Notes: generated by a model not told the origin, from the sequence alone. A stretch of 24,371 nt of DNA from Candidatus Iainarchaeum sp. (GCA_021158055.1 JAGGVJ010000014.1:1-24371), one strand, 5' to 3'; numbered from the stretch's first letter, positions 932-19,660 are shown. Numbers and translations: made by a program.

Positions 932-2032
932 TCACAAGACATAACCATTTGCGTCCTCAATCAATCCAAATCCCGAACCTAATCCACTTGCATCAATATC
1001 AAGGTCTTCTATAAATATATCAGTAACTTCGCTTAAGTATTCGATATAAGTAAAAGAACCGATTTTTTCAAATACAAATTTATGGGAAGAATAAGACTTT
1101 AAAGAGGTGAAAAATTTCCCTTTATTTGCTGTAATTATCCATCGCGGATTATTTTTTCCGAATTTCTTTATGGTTAAATCTTTGAAGATATATTTTTTAT
1201 CTTTTTCATTATCGTAAAATGTAAGCACTGATGACAATTTGTGGTTAAATACTGATAGTTCTATTCTTGGCTCATAGTAAGTTATAATAGAACCGTTTGA
1301 AAATACGATTCTTCCCCAGTACCATGGAACAAAAGGACCGACCACAACAACTTTTTGAACATAGCATTTTCCAGAGAACTTTTTTTTATTTAACATTCCT
1401 GTAAAATCAAAGTATAAATCTATCAAGGTATAACCAGCGAATGATTTAAAATAATTGCTAAAACCAAAATGATCTGAATTATCTTTTGGTTTTGTTATTT
1501 TTAGATTTACAAGTTCTTTGTTATTCTTGGATATATTAAGGAAATAATCAGGAAACTTCCCTTTGTAATTTATTTTATATTGTTCATCAGAAGCTGTAAT
1601 GTTGTCAGGATTCATTGATATTGAACTTTTACCATCTAATATCAAATCTTTTTTATTATCATAAAACCAGACCGTCATATAACCATTTCTTCCGTTCTGT
1701 TTTCCGCATTTCACTTTTGTTTTATTTATTTTTATAATCTCCGAACTGTCTCCGAACATCACAAGAAGTTGTCTTTTGTCTTCGGGTTCTGTTGATGTAA
1801 ATTTCATAAACCAGTATTCTTTGCCGGTGGGGGGCAGATCTTCAAAACAAAAAAACATGGGGTCAATCTCGTGCGTAGAATTTTTTGTTTTTTTAAGTTC
1901 AATTAAGGACTTATACTTGGAATTAATCTGTTTGATTTTTTCTTTAAACTGCTTTTTTTCAATACTTGATAAGGTCTGGATATATTTATTTAGGGTATTG
2001 AATGCATCATCCTTCAGTTTTTTTATTTTCAT
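932..2032 (-). CDS. CrtC/AttH-like (lipocalin-type) beta-barrel protein, tentative
   Basis: A 366-residue soluble protein without signal peptide or membrane segment. Residues 1-50 are Lys/Glu-rich and predicted helical. From about 57 to the end it is a run of short beta strands rich in aromatic residues, with a conserved-looking core GPFVPWYWGR at 232-241 followed by IVFSNGSIITYYEP, and a Gly-rich C-terminus (GLGSGFGLIEDANG). This layout recalls the double-lipocalin barrel of hydroxyneurosporene hydratase/AttH-type proteins, which act on isoprenoid double bonds or lipids. The match is by pattern only and function is not established. It is the last gene behind the Tes-like gene (56-base gap, same strand, AAAGGCG before the ATG), which makes a lipid-related role attractive but unproven. 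Codon use is strongly AT-rich. Confidence 0.6.
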   Translation of the reverse strand: MKIKKLKDDAFNTLNKYIQTLSSIEKKQFKEKIKQINSKYKSLIELKKTKNSTHEIDPMFFCFEDLPPTGKEYWFMKFTSTEPEDKRQLLVMFGDSSEIIKINKTKVKCGKQNGRNGYMTVWFYDNKKDLILDGKSSISMNPDNITASDEQYKINYKGKFPDYFLNISKNNKELVNLKITKPKDNSDHFGFSNYFKSFAGYTLIDLYFDFTGMLNKKKFSGKCYVQKVVVVGPFVPWYWGRIVFSNGSIITYYEPRIELSVFNHKLSSVLTFYDNEKDKKYIFKDLTIKKFGKNNPRWIITANKGKFFTSLKSYSSHKFVFEKIGSFTYIEYLSEVTDIFIEDLDIDASGLGSGFGLIEDANGYVL

Positions 2033-2088: not shown

Positions 2089-3582
2089 TTATGATTCAAT
2101 ATTCAGCGGTTTGCTGAATTTTTTTTCTACAATCGGCCTGTGAATATAATTATACGAGCAAAAAGGGATTATTCTATCATCGGGTGTGGAATAATGGACA
2201 ATGCAGCTCTGGACTCTCTGGCAGTCAAAATTATAACGGTCCATAAAATGCATAGCGCCAATCATCACTGATTTTTCGGCAAATATTTCCATCGCTTTTG
2301 CATCTCCTTTCAAAAAATTAATAATAAGTTTAGTTATATTCATTGATTTTGGCATTTTTGCTTTATCAACCAATTCAGGAATTTCTTTTATAATTTTAGC
2401 TATTGCCTTTACTTTCCAGATGCTGTGATTTTTTTCTTCATCTTCAGTTAGTTGCTTCATCAAATCAAAAAATCCGTTGACGTCAACGAATTTTGTTATC
2501 GGGGTTATTTTTTCGTCTTCTGCATAGATGTATGTTGCAGAACCGCAGGCAGGATGGCAGGATAATCTGCCCAGTCGCTTGTTGTGCCATCTTTCTAAAA
2601 ACAAATTCAACGGAACCACAAAGGGAACAGAATAAAAATCATCCGGTCCTATCTGTCCTTCTGTCTGTTTTTCAAGCAAATGCATTAAATCCGGCTGAGT
2701 GATTCTCATTTTCTTGAGATCTTTATTATCAACTCTTCCTGCAAATGACAGCGGCTGAAAATTTACCCCTCTGACAACATCGGCATTTTTTACAGCAAAT
2801 TTCACTATATCTCCTGCTTCTTTGTCATTGACGCCTCCGATCAATGTCGGGACCAGAACAATTTGCTTAAAATTCATCTGCCTGCAGTTTTCAATGACTT
2901 TCAATTTTGTTGGAAGCGCATTGAAACCGCGTATTGTATGGTATGGCTCTTCTGTAACTCCGTCAAACTGAAGATATACAGTATCTAAGCCGGCATTTTT
3001 TAAGGAAGTAATATAGCTTAAATCTTTTGAGATTTTTATCCCATTTGTGGCAATAAGAATATACAGGAATCCCATTTGTTTTGCCATCCTGATTATATCA
3101 GGTAAATCCTTACGCATTGTCGGTTCCCCTCCGGAAAACATGACTGCATTACAGCCAACGGGCTTTTCGTTTGTTAAATTGCGCAGCATTTTCCTTAACT
3201 GGTCCAAGGATGGTTCATAAACATAGCCGCAAGCTTCTGAATTGGCAAAGCACACAGGGCATCGTTGATTGCATCTGTTTGTCACATCAATAATGCCAAG
3301 GATCGTGGGGCTTTTATGATTGTTGCACAATCCGCAGTCATGAGGACAGTTATTTGTTGACAGGGTGTTTGGATTTTCCAAGCCTGTGTTGTCATATTTA
3401 TCTTTTAAAAATCTTTCAAATACCTTTGCATCCCCGTAATACAAGTCTTCAAAATCACCATGCTCTTTGCAGGTTTTTTTGATAAAAATTTTGTTGTCTT
3501 TTTCTTCCACTACTGCATCAATTGTTTTGTGGCATTCCGGGCACAATGATTTTGTTTTATAGGTCATTTTTTTTAGTTTCAT
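2089..3582 (-). CDS. tes: Radical SAM enzyme, tetraether synthase (Tes/MJ0619) family
   Basis: 497 residues. Tes couples the ends of two archaeol-type chains by radical C-C bond formation to give tetraether or macrocyclic membrane lipids. Visible features: a zinc-ribbon-like N-terminus (C14, C17, C38), an extra cluster motif CPHDCGLC at 79-86, the radical SAM motif CNQRCPVC with C104, C108 and C111, and FSGGEPT at 149-155, which contacts the S-adenosylmethionine. C-terminal cysteines follow at 342 and 346 (CHPAC) and at 454, 460 and 475, consistent with the several iron-sulfur clusters of the family. Length is normal. The ATG overlaps the TGA of the upstream small ORF by four bases, which fixes the start and suggests translational coupling. 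Known: family chemistry. Inferred: that this copy makes tetraethers rather than a related product. Confidence 0.85.
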   Translation of the reverse strand: MKLKKMTYKTKSLCPECHKTIDAVVEEKDNKIFIKKTCKEHGDFEDLYYGDAKVFERFLKDKYDNTGLENPNTLSTNNCPHDCGLCNNHKSPTILGIIDVTNRCNQRCPVCFANSEACGYVYEPSLDQLRKMLRNLTNEKPVGCNAVMFSGGEPTMRKDLPDIIRMAKQMGFLYILIATNGIKISKDLSYITSLKNAGLDTVYLQFDGVTEEPYHTIRGFNALPTKLKVIENCRQMNFKQIVLVPTLIGGVNDKEAGDIVKFAVKNADVVRGVNFQPLSFAGRVDNKDLKKMRITQPDLMHLLEKQTEGQIGPDDFYSVPFVVPLNLFLERWHNKRLGRLSCHPACGSATYIYAEDEKITPITKFVDVNGFFDLMKQLTEDEEKNHSIWKVKAIAKIIKEIPELVDKAKMPKSMNITKLIINFLKGDAKAMEIFAEKSVMIGAMHFMDRYNFDCQRVQSCIVHYSTPDDRIIPFCSYNYIHRPIVEKKFSKPLNIES

Positions 3583-8765: not shown

Positions 8766-10760
8766 TTAATCAGGGATTCCTGTGGCGGTTGCCCAGAAAG
8801 TCAATGTGCCTGTTTCTGTTCCTGTTCCAGAGTAATTTTCCGGCGTGTCAAGGCTTGTTGAAACGGTTGACTCGTGTACGAAGTCGCCGGGATCAGCTGT
8901 CAATCCCATGAGGAAGATGTCCCATGGGTTTGCATCCAGCAACAGGTTTTTTGTGTACAGTGTGCCTTCGCTGTCTGTCACTTCTGCTTCTATTTTCAGA
9001 TTCCATGACCCGCTGTTTTTCAGTGTCAGCTTTGTGCCTGAAACATTGTATCCGGGTCCGAATGAGCCGAAATCAATTGACAACGGGTTCACTGAAAAAG
9101 AAACAGCAGGGATGATTACTGAGGTCATCCGGACATCCGAGCTTGTTTGTTCTCCTCCGTCCACGCTGAATTCAAGTTTTTCGCTTCTAAAGTATTTGCC
9201 GTCGGGTTTTTCCGCGTAGACCTGTTTTGCGCCTCCGGAAGAAAATGTTATTGTCGCTGTTCCCAAGTCATCGGTTGTCTGTTCAGAGCTTGCGCCTTTT
9301 ACTGTCGCGCCTTCCAGCGGATGCCATTTGCCTTCGTCTTTGTGAAAGTATTCCACTGTTACGTCGACGTTTTCCCCTGCGTTAGCTTCTGTCGAACCGG
9401 CTGTTATCCTGAGCGCGCTTGCGTTCCAGTCCCCGTAAAACCACACTGCTTTTTCGTGCGGCGGGTTTGGCGGACTGCTTTCCTGCCATATGAAGCTGTT
9501 CACTGAAGTGAACCCGGTTGAATGGTAATCGACCCTTATGTTCCACCCGTCCAGTCCGCTTGCATCATATCCTGCCACGCCGTTCACGTAAAACCCCATT
9601 GCAGGGTACCATTCGTCACTGATGCTCACCGAAAAACTGTTTTCTTTTCCTGCCTGAAGCAATCCCATCAACAGGCTGGGTTCTGTCAGGGTGTATGTTG
9701 TCTGGCTGTTTGAAGACGTGAAGTCAATTGAGTCAGGCAGTTCTATTTCGGTGTCAAGGATTGTCTGGTCAGGTGCTTCTATCCTGATTGCCATTGTGTG
9801 GCTTGTTGCCTGCTGAATGGTTTTTACCGGGTGGGGTTTTCCAAGCAGTGCGTTGACGGCGTTTGCAGTGGTCCACCCGCTTGAAGTCAGTTCCGGATTA
9901 GCGTAAGGGTTGCTGAATCCCCCGTCTGCCTGCTGCCAGTCAAGAATGTAATCAACAGGGTTTGTGCCGTTTTTATCCCACTCGGCTGAAGTGGGGTCTT
10001 GTTCAACTGCTGCAATTGATTCAATTGCGTAAGAGGTTGAATCCGGGTTTGCCTGCCCCCATGAAACGAAGCCGGCGCTACTTGAGTGCTGTTGGGTTTT
10101 CAGATAATCTATTGCGTTCTCTATGTTTGTTTCCGTTTTTGGCTTTCCGGCTGAAACAAGGGCCATTATTGCGGTTGCCGTGCTGTCGGCGTCGCTTGAC
10201 TGGCCTGTGCCCCAGCTCCACCCGTTGTCTGTTCCCTGGTTTGATTCAATGAAATTGACCATTCCCTGTATTTCTGTTGATGAAGCAGGTTCTCCTGCGC
10301 AGATTAATGCGATTACTCCCCAGAAATCATCATTTAGCAGGGTTGAACTTCCCATTTGCGCTTCGCCGTGGTTGTACATTGATTTCAGTTTTGCAACATA
10401 GTCAAGCCCGTTGAAGTTTTTCGGGTCTTTGTCTGCTGCAACGATTGCAATGATCTGCCTTTCAAAGTCTGTTGCTGTCCTGCCTGGGTCATCAAACCAC
10501 AAGGCATCTTTTTTTATGCAGTCAACCAGTGAGTTGTCTCCTGTAGACCATTCGCTTGAGGAAGGGTCTTCACCTGCTGCTGTAACTGCGCTTATCACCC
10601 ATGCGCTTGTTGAAAATCCTCCGATGCACCCGTCGCTGTCCTGCTGTGATTTGAAATAATCCAGTGAGTTTGCTATTTCAGTGTCAGAGGCATTCATCGG
10701 ATAGGCATGAGCCCCGGCAGTCAATAGTAATATGACCAAAATACTTAATGCGTGTTTCAA
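8766..10760 (-). CDS. Secreted alpha/alpha-toroid plus DUF4430 protein, transcobalamin-like architecture
   Basis: 664 residues, exported (signal MKHALSILVILLLTAGAHA). Residues 30-310 hold five prenyltransferase/terpene-cyclase-type repeats, each with a hydrophobic helix pair and Gln/Gly-rich turns (YFKSQQDSDGCIGGFSTSAW, then copies near 120, 167, 215 and 270, the last with WQQADGGFSNP). Residues 325-445 look like DUF4430: EPSLLMGLLQAGKENSFSVS, then MGFYVNGVAGYDASGLDGWN. An Ig-like domain follows (450-535) and a C-terminal beta domain (545-664) ending TGTLTFWATATG. A toroid followed by DUF4430 is the layout of transcobalamin and intrinsic factor, so binding of a corrinoid or other small ligand is a fair inference, not shown. 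No catalytic DxDD motif of true cyclases is seen. The TTG start follows GGTGG at the right distance. No C-terminal anchor; the next gene encodes an anchored partner candidate. Confidence 0.85.
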   Translation of the reverse strand: MKHALSILVILLLTAGAHAYPMNASDTEIANSLDYFKSQQDSDGCIGGFSTSAWVISAVTAAGEDPSSSEWSTGDNSLVDCIKKDALWFDDPGRTATDFERQIIAIVAADKDPKNFNGLDYVAKLKSMYNHGEAQMGSSTLLNDDFWGVIALICAGEPASSTEIQGMVNFIESNQGTDNGWSWGTGQSSDADSTATAIMALVSAGKPKTETNIENAIDYLKTQQHSSSAGFVSWGQANPDSTSYAIESIAAVEQDPTSAEWDKNGTNPVDYILDWQQADGGFSNPYANPELTSSGWTTANAVNALLGKPHPVKTIQQATSHTMAIRIEAPDQTILDTEIELPDSIDFTSSNSQTTYTLTEPSLLMGLLQAGKENSFSVSISDEWYPAMGFYVNGVAGYDASGLDGWNIRVDYHSTGFTSVNSFIWQESSPPNPPHEKAVWFYGDWNASALRITAGSTEANAGENVDVTVEYFHKDEGKWHPLEGATVKGASSEQTTDDLGTATITFSSGGAKQVYAEKPDGKYFRSEKLEFSVDGGEQTSSDVRMTSVIIPAVSFSVNPLSIDFGSFGPGYNVSGTKLTLKNSGSWNLKIEAEVTDSEGTLYTKNLLLDANPWDIFLMGLTADPGDFVHESTVSTSLDTPENYSGTGTETGTLTFWATATGIPD

Positions 10761-10926
10761 GAAACCACCTGTTGCTTGTTTAAAATTTTTGATATGTTGT
10801 TTTTTTCAAAAAGATTATCAATGAAAAAGTTAACAAAAAGATAATATTTTCCAGAATACGAACTTTTTTAAACTACTCTTTTGGATAATAATTATTAGTT
10901 ATTAGTTAATGCTTGATTATTGATAG
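10761..10926. promoter_or_regulatory. Divergent regulatory region with short direct repeats
   Basis: This 166-base gap separates two divergent TTG-start genes. CAAAAAGATTAT at 10807-10818 recurs as CAAAAAGATAAT at 10834-10845, 27 bases on. On the right, ATTAGTT is repeated at 10894-10900 and 10901-10907 near an AT-rich TATA candidate (GATAATAATTATT, 10884-10896). These are candidate operators for the ArsR-type protein and candidate promoters for both genes. Confidence 0.35.
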
Positions 10927-11448
10927 TTGGTGTCTGATTTGGATATTTTCAGGGTTTTGGGCAACGAGAACCGGAGAAAAATTTTGAAGCTCTTGTTTGA
11001 AGAAGAGTTGCATATCAATGGAATTGCAAAAAGGCTCGGTATTTCTGTGCCGGTTGTTTTTAAGCATGTAAAAGTATTGGAAGACAATGAATTGATTGAA
11101 AGAAAGAAAATCGGAAACATGCATGTTCTGAAGATAAGGAGCGCGTATGTTGCCACGATCAGGAAGGTTTTTAATGCGATTGAAAAATCCCATATGATAA
11201 AAGCGGAAAAAGGAGAGACGCTCCTGAGTGTTTTTAAGCGCGTTTCCGGAATCGGATTAAAAAAATCCAAGAACGGTTATTTTGTTGATAGTATTGACGG
11301 AAAAAAAGGTTTTTTTCTGTTTGAGGTAAATGGGAAGATTCCGAACAGGCCGCTGGAGAAGGTGGTGCTGAAGAAAAATTCGGAAGTAAGTTTTTATCGT
11401 TTGACGCCTGTTCTTGGAAAAATATTTGAGATAAACTTGACGGAATAG
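10927..11448 (+). CDS. ArsR-type winged-helix regulator fused to a DUF4430-like sensor domain
   Basis: 173 residues, cytoplasmic. Residues 3-75 are an ArsR-family winged helix (FRVLGNENRRKILKLLFEEE, HINGIAKRLGISVPVVFKHV, KVLEDNELIERKKIGNMHV). No ArsR metal-binding cysteines are present; the protein has no Cys at all. Residues about 96-160 fit DUF4430: GETLLSVFKRVSGIG, then NGYFVDSIDGKKGFFLFEVN and a closing strand VVLKKNSEVSFYRL. The family consensus is likewise a short helix, a Gly-Tyr strand with IDG, a VNG turn and a final strand. The secreted protein transcribed divergently next door carries the same kind of domain, so this is probably a one-component ligand sensor controlling that gene. 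Start is TTG at 10927, with GTG at 10930 equally possible. Confidence 0.8.
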   Translation: MVSDLDIFRVLGNENRRKILKLLFEEELHINGIAKRLGISVPVVFKHVKVLEDNELIERKKIGNMHVLKIRSAYVATIRKVFNAIEKSHMIKAEKGETLLSVFKRVSGIGLKKSKNGYFVDSIDGKKGFFLFEVNGKIPNRPLEKVVLKKNSEVSFYRLTPVLGKIFEINLTE

Positions 11449-17266: not shown

Positions 17267-18094
17267 ATGGGGGTCATAAAAAACACCTGCAACCGCATGC
17301 AGTCAACAGCCAACAGTGTGTTTTTCAGGAAAAGCACAGGAAAGCGCTTTTATGAAATAGATGTTTTGAGGGGTATTGCTGTTTTGCTGATGATTTTTTA
17401 TCATGCTTTTTTTGATTTGAATTATTTTTTTGGCTTTGGTTTTGATTTGTGGTCTGGTTTGATCTGGTTTGTCGGAAGGTCTGCTGCGGTGTTGTTTGTT
17501 TTTCTTGTCGGGGTGTCTTTGACAGTCAGTTTTTCAAGGGCAAGTCAAAAAAGTTTTTTTGCGAAAAAAACAGGTATTTCAAACGAGGGGTTGTTTTTTG
17601 CTAAAAAGTATGTTTTGAGGGGTTTAGGGATTTTTTCATTGGGCTTAATAATAACGGTTGTGACGTTTTTGTTTGATTCCTCAAAAACAATTTATTTTGG
17701 GGTATTGCATTTTATCGGTTTTGCTGTTGCGTTTTCTTTTCCTTTTTTAAGGTTCAGACGATTGAATCTGGTGTTTGGGGTTGCATCAATTTTTCTTGGT
17801 TTTTATTTGTCAAAGATTGTTTTTGATTTTCCTTATCTTCTTTTTTTGGGTTTTCGCCCTTCTTTTTTTGCTTCTTTTGATTATTTCCCTGTGTTCCCTT
17901 GGATCGGTGTTGTGTTTTTGGGAATGTTTTTTGGCAACGTTTTGTATCCTCAAGGGAAGCGGTTGTTTTTGATACCTGATTTTTCAAAAAGTTTTGGTGT
18001 TTTTTCTTTTCTCGGGCGAAATTCTTTGGCGATTTATTTCCTGCACCAACCCGTGATTATTGCATTGATGTGTTTATTGTCAATATTGTTTTGA
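17267..18094 (+). CDS. DUF1624/HGSNAT-like membrane acyltransferase family protein
   Basis: 275 residues with about seven membrane helices. The N-terminal motif RFYEIDVLRGIAVLLMIFYH (27-46), with Arg and His at the ends of the first helix, is the signature of the DUF1624/heparan-alpha-glucosaminide N-acetyltransferase-like group. It is followed by LIWFVGRSAAVLFVFLVGVS, and near the C-terminus by FPWIGVVFLGMFFGNVLYP and SLAIYFLHQPVIIAL, the latter typical of integral acyltransferases. It may transfer an acyl group to a cell-surface glycan or other exported compound; the substrate cannot be read from the sequence. The first about 25 residues are polar and weakly conserved, so a later start is possible. 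Divergent from pheS. Confidence 0.82.
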   Translation: MGVIKNTCNRMQSTANSVFFRKSTGKRFYEIDVLRGIAVLLMIFYHAFFDLNYFFGFGFDLWSGLIWFVGRSAAVLFVFLVGVSLTVSFSRASQKSFFAKKTGISNEGLFFAKKYVLRGLGIFSLGLIITVVTFLFDSSKTIYFGVLHFIGFAVAFSFPFLRFRRLNLVFGVASIFLGFYLSKIVFDFPYLLFLGFRPSFFASFDYFPVFPWIGVVFLGMFFGNVLYPQGKRLFLIPDFSKSFGVFSFLGRNSLAIYFLHQPVIIALMCLLSILF

Positions 18095-18201: not shown

Positions 18202-18708
18202 ATGAAAAAGTGTTTTGTTCTTGATGCTTCCGGGATAATCAATAGTCCGTTGTTTTCCCCGGGAAATGATTGTTTTTTGTGTCCTCCTGAAGTGATTTCT
18301 GAAATCAGGGACAGTCATTCAAGAAGTATTTTGGAGGCGTTGAAGGCTTCGGGAAATCTTGAGGTAAGAGAGCCTTTGAGCGATTCTGTTGAAAGTGTTT
18401 TGAAGCAGGCAAGGTCTACAGGGGACGTTTCTGTTTTGTCTGAAACAGATGTGAAGGTTTTTGCCCTTGCAATCGAAACAGGCAGTGTCTTGTTGAGTGA
18501 TGATTTTGCCTTGCAGAATGTTGCTTTGAAGATGAATGTTTGTGTTTTGTCTGCGTCGCACGGTGAAATAAAAAGAAAGGTGTCATGGGGGTTTCGGTGC
18601 GAGGGCTGCAACAGGAAGTTTCCCCTTGATTATAAGGAGAAGACCTGCAGTGTGTGCGGTTCAAAAATCAAAAGGTATGCAAAGCGTGTTTTCAGGCGTC
18701 GTCAGTGA
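18202..18708 (+). CDS. nob1: Endoribonuclease Nob1 (16S rRNA 3'-end maturation)
   Basis: 168 residues. A PIN nuclease domain is followed by a zinc ribbon, the archaeal Nob1 layout; the enzyme makes the final cut at the 3' end of 16S rRNA in pre-30S particles. PIN acidic residues: D8 (FVLDASGII), E34 (VISEI), D83 (SETDVKVFALA) and D100/D101 (LLSDDFALQN). Zinc ribbon: C133-x2-C136 and C149-x2-C152 (CEGC, CSVC), then a very basic C-terminus (KIKRYAKRVFRRRQ) suited to RNA binding. ATG at 18202 is chosen; a GTG 24 bases upstream is in frame but adds residues foreign to the family. It overlaps the convergent minus-strand gene by 17 bases. Confidence 0.93.
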   Translation: MKKCFVLDASGIINSPLFSPGNDCFLCPPEVISEIRDSHSRSILEALKASGNLEVREPLSDSVESVLKQARSTGDVSVLSETDVKVFALAIETGSVLLSDDFALQNVALKMNVCVLSASHGEIKRKVSWGFRCEGCNRKFPLDYKEKTCSVCGSKIKRYAKRVFRRRQ

Positions 18709-19579
18709 TGTCAAGCCCAAGGTCTTCGTTTTCCATGTTTTTTTCTTCTTTTCCGGTGTTGTGTTCTTCAACGTATTTTTCAAGGGTTTCCCGGATTTTT
18801 TTCCTTGAAAACACAACAAACAACAGCATGATTGCAAGAACGCCTGCGAGAATCAACGCGCGTTTTTCAAGGAAGTCAAAGATTTGATCCTGTATTTGGG
18901 TGACTTCTTCAGTTATCGGTATTTCCCAGGTGTATTCGAGGTTTATTTCGCTTGTTGTAATGTGCCCGCTCCAGGTGACTTTTGTGCTTGTACCCCCGCT
19001 TGGAGTGACTGCGTTTTCGGTTATGATGTAGCTTTCCGGCTTGATGTTTTTAAGAAGCTGGCTTCCTTCAGGGATTACCACTGACATGACGAAGTTTTTT
19101 GGGATTATGAACGAGCCGCTTTTTGTTTTAATGTTCAGTTTGCTTTCGTCGAATTTCATGTATTTTACGCGGTTTGTTTGCCCGGTAACTATTGACGGGA
19201 TAATTGCATCATATTCAATTGTCAGCATGACTGCGTTTCTGATCAGCTGGTTGTTTTCAATGTAAGGTGATGTCCTGTTGCTTAGGTTTTGCCGGTCTCC
19301 TGCTACAAAAAAGTCTATTCCCTGATTGAAGTTTTTCCAGCTGATTGTGTTTGAACCTGTTTTTTCAGCCAGTTTTTCAAAGTTGATGTAGTCGTTTTGG
19401 TTGCCGAGTTCAAAAAGAAATTTTTCGTTCACGTGTACAACGCCGTTTTCCTGCAGGTATATAGTGACTGAAGTGTTCATGAGGGTGTGGTTTATGGTAG
19501 TGTTTCCGTCAGTAAACAGTTCGGCGCCTGCAACTTGTGAAAGCAGTATTGCCGCCAGCAAAGCAATTATTTTTTTCAT
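18692..19579 (-). CDS. Membrane-anchored secreted protein, unknown function
   Basis: Not assigned to a family. 295 residues: signal peptide MKKIIALLAAILLSQVAGA, extracellular beta-rich region of about 210 residues with several N-glycosylation sequons near the start (NTT, NHT, NTS), one membrane helix close to the C-terminus (ALILAGVLAIMLLFVVF), then RKK and an acidic cytoplasmic tail (ENEDLGLDITDDA). The middle pattern (QENGVVHVNEKFLFEL, later SYIITENAVTPSGGTSTKVT and a WSGHIT strand) recalls archaeal surface proteins with repeated beta domains. ATG at 19579 is preferred to the TTG at 19594 because GGAGAT lies just before it. Tail-to-tail overlap with nob1. Confidence 0.8.
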   Translation of the reverse strand: MKKIIALLAAILLSQVAGAELFTDGNTTINHTLMNTSVTIYLQENGVVHVNEKFLFELGNQNDYINFEKLAEKTGSNTISWKNFNQGIDFFVAGDRQNLSNRTSPYIENNQLIRNAVMLTIEYDAIIPSIVTGQTNRVKYMKFDESKLNIKTKSGSFIIPKNFVMSVVIPEGSQLLKNIKPESYIITENAVTPSGGTSTKVTWSGHITTSEINLEYTWEIPITEEVTQIQDQIFDFLEKRALILAGVLAIMLLFVVFSRKKIRETLEKYVEEHNTGKEEKNMENEDLGLDITDDA

Positions 19580-19660
19580 TTTATCTCCTGTCAAAACATG
19601 GTAAGTGTGTGATTATATTGTCATGCTTGTCATGCGTAAATAGCATAACTTATTGTGTTT

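Follow-up and report, generated by a model that had tools for sequence, protein, structure and literature searches.

A divergent gene pair found in this archaeal genome probably represents a corrinoid-sensing one-component regulator and the corrinoid capture locus of a Diapherotrites archaeon unable to make corrinoids, as judged from sequence comparison. The window, by which we mean the whole stretch of 24,371 nucleotides analysed here, is contig C27 of an archaeal genome of 1.15 Mb that is 94.9% complete, and within it a regulator combining an ArsR-type winged helix with a DUF4430 domain diverges from the gene of a secreted alpha/alpha toroid protein, with a predicted operator between them (Table 1). 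The conserved pair and the common operator suggest how B12 scavenging is controlled in these archaea, and one protein family, one 16-bp operator and one set of target genes can now be named as candidates for archaeal B12 sensing. The comparison also suggests that archaea with tiny genomes and without corrinoid synthesis scavenge through a carrier of the same design as that of animals. One binding fold would then have served as carrier outside the cell and as sensor inside it.

Features of the locus

Re-reading of the sequence confirmed both open reading frames of the pair at the coordinates and on the strands given to them in the initial annotation. Throughout this study, relatives are the genomes placed in the same class as the window genome, including Candidatus Diapherotrites records; the search for the regulator covered 93 genomes and the search for CbiD covered 87 Diapherotrites genomes.

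Table 1. Coordinates of the features of the divergent pair, counted from the first letter of the window.
Feature	Position	Strand	Remarks
One-component regulator, 173 aa	10927..11448	+	Start TTG at 10927 or GTG at 10930
ArsR-type winged helix, about residues 5-88	10939-11190	+	Within the regulator
DUF4430/SLBB domain (transcobalamin C-terminal-like), presumed ligand-sensing domain, residues 94-158	11206-11400	+	Profile matches
Secreted protein, 664 aa: signal peptide, alpha/alpha toroid (about residues 25-310), DUF4430-like segment, Ig-like region	8766..10760	-	
DUF4430-like segment of the toroid protein, about residues 358-447	9420..9689	-	Suggestive only
Small secreted protein with C-terminal membrane helix	8114..8731	-	Follows the toroid gene in the predicted operon
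Predicted operator GATAATAATTATTAGT, inverted repeat	10884..10899	.	Leave-one-out scoring and genome pattern search
Predicted TATA box TAGTTTAAAAAAG of the toroid gene	10863-10875	-	Predicted, read from the sequence
Predicted BRE CAAAAGAG of the toroid gene	10876-10883	-	Predicted; directly abuts the operator

Elsewhere in the window, the gene at 2089-3582 (-) encodes a radical SAM protein whose N-terminus carries an HMPTM-type zinc ribbon (PF23545, PF04055) and which presumably resembles archaeal tetraether-lipid synthase or HMPTM-type enzymes. Two long open reading frames, at 932-2032 (-) and 18692-19594 (-), gave no Pfam match, and the product of the second looks secreted, with a membrane anchor at its C-terminus. 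An HGSNAT-type membrane acyltransferase (PF07786, E=7e-62) is encoded at 17267-18094 (+), and a similar gene lies near the S-component operon of another genome (G041, L121:5870-6598).

The regulator

The initial annotation had described the regulator as an ArsR helix-turn-helix followed by a DUF4430-type domain, and both halves of that description held. The N-terminal part matched ArsR/HTH_5 of Pfam (E=5.5e-9) and HTH_metalloreg (E=3.2e-14, 52.5 bits against a cut-off of 55), and in a structure search it matched CzrA (VIA Z 13.9, rmsd 2.0, 88 residues). Residues 96-157 matched DUF4430 (PF14478; E=1.9e-4, 22.3 bits), with 23.9 bits in the genome-wide search against a curated cut-off of 23.8, that is, at the cut-off, while a profile-profile comparison with hhalign of the C-terminal domains of 19 regulators with DUF4430 lipoproteins of the same lineages gave a probability of 97.3% and E=2e-11. 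The structural model places a helix at residues 99-105 and strands at 109-114, 117-123, 129-134 and 154-159, consistent with a beta-grasp fold in which a beta-hairpin follows the helix; the structure search returned winged-helix proteins only, which filled its lists, and the absence of transcobalamin from those lists is uninformative. These sequence and profile matches identify the regulator as a fusion of an ArsR winged helix with a true DUF4430 domain.

Many ArsR/SmtB proteins sense metal ions, and the fold thus raises the alternative that the regulator responds to cobalt or nickel, with DUF4430 as merely a dimerisation or structural part. Against this, no conserved cysteine of the classic ArsR/SmtB metal site was found across the 19 aligned regulators, and because of this absence the protein was assigned to the ArsR/SmtB fold only and not to the metal sensors.

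The secreted toroid protein

For the secreted partner, described in the initial annotation as a toroid plus a DUF4430-like segment, the toroid was confirmed by matches to squalene-cyclase/prenyltransferase toroid families (SQHop_cyclase_C, E=1e-11; Prenyltrans, E=2.5e-8), whereas the DUF4430 domain of the window copy is only suggestive and not statistically established. Pfam returned no DUF4430 match in this protein, either at full length or with the segment 358-447 alone, and no match to PF01122. In a home-made DUF4430 profile the window segment scored at noise level and the homologue in G076, which lies at the same place and is 66% identical, scored slightly better (E=0.0011 in a one-sequence search). 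In a profile comparison three elements fell into the correct register, namely the helix SLLMGLLQA, the strand GFYVNGV and the W..RVD motif, and 1 of 200 shuffles matched the score. The N-terminus was judged by eye to be a signal peptide, and the structural model of the protein reached a pLDDT of 42 with two sequences eligible.

Partners at the same locus in other relatives carry a clear, Pfam-level DUF4430 domain, placed N-terminal to the toroid, one example being L069:5142-6689. Two partner architectures thus occur at one locus, toroid followed by DUF4430-like segment in the window and G076, and DUF4430 followed by toroid in L069, L066, L064, L118 and others, a pattern that would fit replacement of the carrier, or a rearrangement of its domains, with the regulator unchanged. 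The small secreted protein encoded after the toroid gene has a homologue in the equivalent position in G076 (38% identity), and relatives carry an analogous small membrane-anchored gene after their toroid gene.

Conservation of the pair

The ArsR-DUF4430 architecture was found in 18 Diapherotrites genomes, one copy being cut by a contig end, and in G087, a genome of another phylum. In 17 of these 18 Diapherotrites genomes, all except G012, the gene diverging from it encodes a secreted toroid protein, which shows the pairing to be present in related genomes. DUF4430 proteins of toroid length that exceed the Pfam cut-off occur in 14 genomes, all 14 of which have the regulator and 13 of which have it adjacent (Fisher p=6e-13 for co-occurrence); another 21 Diapherotrites genomes have small DUF4430 proteins only, without the regulator. 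The proposal that one domain type serves both outside and inside the cell is supported, and the pairing is conserved, with the operator common to the loci as a link between the two genes.

The predicted operator

The divergent intergenic regions have GATAAT-n4-ATTAnC in common, usually with a third half-site, GnTAAT, six bases on. In leave-one-out scoring the window operator reached 15.8 and ranked first among 24,371 positions, the runner-up reaching 9.9, and the operator was also the top of its locus in most relatives, with a matrix in which three training sites (L062, L066 and L068) were out of register; in the later operator matrix L062 was re-registered and L066 and L068 were dropped. A search of the 1.15-Mb genome for exact matches to GATAATNNTNATTANY gave a single site, the operator itself, and no position reached 10 in 120,673 bp of control loci taken mostly from genomes without the regulator. 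A sum-of-mismatches test is partly circular because the pattern was picked by eye from the same intergenic regions; the leave-one-out test and the G012 and cross-phylum tests described below are free of that circularity.

Towards the toroid gene the operator directly adjoins the predicted BRE/TATA, and on its other side the start of the regulator gene follows after about 30 bases; the regulator should therefore control both genes. The same layout of operator and BRE/TATA was seen in relatives. G012 is informative in this respect, since its regulator, its toroid gene and its operon of S component and DUF4430 lipoprotein lie in three places of one contig, more than 100 kilobases apart, and each unit has exactly one strong site just upstream, scoring 15.5 for the regulator, 14.0 for the toroid gene and 20.1 for the S component (at L120:3858, upstream of the S-component gene).

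These results bear on the reading that adjacency is incidental, the regulator acting on itself or on distant genes and the toroid protein being a structural surface protein. The Ig-like and surface-type regions of the toroid protein and the closeness of the operator to the regulator's own start would fit it, but the pairing has been kept over several families, with the co-occurrence given above, and the unlinked toroid gene of G012 still has an operator 82 bp upstream, so that we regard an incidental arrangement as highly improbable.

Uptake genes and corrinoid supply

The initial annotation had proposed a self-contained receptor and regulator pair, and this part of the proposal has to be given up, as the system in relatives also includes an S component, either CbrT-like or of the DUF6580 family, and a DUF4430 lipoprotein of its own. 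Contig C34 of the window's genome likewise encodes a CbrT-like S component followed by a DUF4430 lipoprotein (L081:3353-4577). The S-component family matched 6FNP, the structure of ECF-CbrT, with E=7.9e-5 alone and 3.6e-4 as a profile, its only significant match in the PDB; the own-genome protein searched alone gave E=4.4 against the same entry and is 45% identical to the member in G043, which is encoded close to a regulator-toroid pair. Eleven genes of this family (E below 1e-24) stand directly before a DUF4430 lipoprotein gene. Neither an ECF T component (CbiQ) nor a PduO-type adenosyltransferase was found in the own genome, and CbiQ is present in relatives of family f13. Membrane proteins of the DUF6580 family (PF20221) were observed beside DUF4430 lipoproteins and the regulator at L062:3665-4216, L069:3559-4101 and L072:2169-2726, and may likewise act as corrinoid S components.

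Besides the G012 site, an operator (15.4) precedes the unlinked S-component operon of G046. No operator was found at the S-component/lipoprotein operon of the own genome (best 6.6) or likewise in G005 and G063, these scans having used the matrix with the three out-of-register training sites, and the extended regulon is therefore not universal. The S-component and lipoprotein loci of eight genomes without the regulator also gave no operator.

CbiD is specific to anaerobic corrin synthesis. None of the 87 Diapherotrites genomes has it, G087 does, and the Diapherotrites must therefore scavenge corrinoids if they use them. Proteins with a B12-binding domain occur in most relatives, including the own genome, and they were found in 38 of 40 genomes with DUF4430 against 27 of 53 others (p=2e-6); this co-occurrence was given little weight because it weakens once genome size is allowed for (p=0.01 for DUF4430 and 0.27 for the regulator).

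A second archaeal phylum

In the phylum of G087 the regulator was found in 22 of 23 genomes, and no toroid partner was seen beside it in the loci of this phylum. Its neighbours include a divergent CbiX-CbiC-CbiD cluster (L167), divergent CbiM-CbiN (L178), SUMT with a FecCD permease and a corrinoid-type ATPase (L179 and L180), NikR and NicO-like transporters (L168 and L170) and BtuF-like proteins with CbiZ (L168), while several regulators adjoin unrelated genes. A motif trained on the Diapherotrites operators only, and consisting of their second part (ATTAnC-n6-GnTAAT), was tried on 22 loci; in 9 of them, some of which are closely related to one another, the best match of the locus fell near the start of the regulator, with up to 22.5 bits. 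Moreover, GTTACCCAAAAGGGTAAT (21.2 bits) lies just upstream of cbiM (L169:6023-6040), with further sites in the promoter of nikR/btuF and ahead of the second btuF-like gene in L168. The sites at cbiM, at nikR/btuF and at regulator starts tie the regulator and its operator to corrinoid and cobalt genes in a lineage where no toroid partner is seen beside the regulator. Several genomes of this phylum encode the full-length ArsR-DUF4430 protein twice, each time among other genes (L078 and L079 in G087; L169 and L172 in G097), which suggests two sub-regulons.

The NikR, NicO-type and CbiMN cobalt/nickel transport genes among these neighbours are what speaks, together with the fold, for metal sensing. 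However, other loci of the same phylum have corrin synthesis and salvage genes as neighbours, and the operator-bearing partners in Diapherotrites are transcobalamin-like and CbrT-like proteins, not metal transporters; with no cysteine conserved, a metal sensor is an unlikely reading of the regulator.

The pair might instead bind another cofactor or small molecule, the link to B12 being family resemblance only. SLBB domains are thought to bind diverse ligands, and a reviewer of the 2007 paper that defined them cautioned that the DUF4430 clade may bind other ligands (PMC1796856); in addition, the DUF6580 S components of some relatives gave no PDB match. This alternative appears improbable in view of independent pointers to corrinoids, namely the CbrT-like S component, the combination of toroid and DUF4430, the cbi, btuF and cbiZ neighbours and the common operator upstream of cbiM.

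Proposed mechanism

We infer a scheme of corrinoid capture and sensing, including the identity of the ligand, its binding by the two proteins, the contact of the regulator with DNA and the direction of control. At the cell surface, the secreted toroid/DUF4430-like protein would hold a corrinoid between its two domains in the manner of transcobalamin, and the CbrT-like membrane S component and the DUF4430 lipoprotein encoded on contig C34 would take it in. Inside the cell, the ArsR-DUF4430 protein would bind the corrinoid through the same kind of domain, and its winged helix would occupy the operator, controlling the toroid gene and the regulator itself. The corrinoid-bound regulator would most likely repress uptake when the cofactor is plentiful, which is the simplest logic for uptake genes, and a regulator on a site abutting the BRE could block TFB. 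The opposite sign, activation by the free regulator, is the alternative, and we lean only slightly towards the corrinoid acting as corepressor.

Comparison with known systems

The fusion of ArsR with DUF4430 and the idea of its relation to B12 are prior art, as they were described by Burroughs et al. (2007; PMC1796856), who defined the SLBB superfamily, noted toroid-SLBB proteins and presented ArsR-SLBB fusions in Methanosarcina (gi:72395507) as likely one-component regulators whose signal would be B12, a B12 precursor or some other ligand. The initial annotation had known of no description of such a pair in archaea, which does not hold for the fusion and its possible B12 role, predicted in 2007. 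For the divergent arrangement no earlier description was found, nor was one found for the operator, for the regulon or for Diapherotrites as hosts of the system. Our regulator has the same two-domain architecture and proposed role as the 2007 fusions, a comparison made at the level of architecture, and the operator, regulon and toroid pairing, which that text does not contain, are supplied here for Diapherotrites and the second phylum.

The secreted partner resembles transcobalamin, intrinsic factor and bacterial toroid-SLBB proteins in joining a secreted alpha/alpha toroid to a DUF4430-type domain, and the window and G076 proteins have the domain order of transcobalamin, which is reversed in most relatives. 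Compared with transcobalamin, the window protein is archaeal, has an extra Ig-like region, does not match PF01122 and has an only suggestive DUF4430 domain, and cobalamin binding is proposed by analogy. ECF-CbrT is a cobalamin/cobinamide transporter (PMC5997447), and the likeness of the own-genome S-component family to it is one of low identity, in a genome without detectable CbiQ.

It is an even question whether the ArsR-DUF4430 proteins are the long-missing class of archaeal B12 regulators, which would act through one conserved operator on transcobalamin-like uptake in scavengers and on cobalamin, cobalt and salvage genes in corrinoid makers; a binding domain of the transcobalamin type would in that case have been recruited into a transcription factor. 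In a comparative study of 2003, Rodionov et al. reportedly proposed that some archaea have a binding signal for a hypothetical B12 regulator. More recently, the predicted archaeal cobalamin regulator CblR of Pyrococcus furiosus was given as being of unknown identity (PMC10746257, a study of 2023), and the ArsR-DUF4430 protein would likewise be a DNA-binding regulator of archaeal corrinoid genes.
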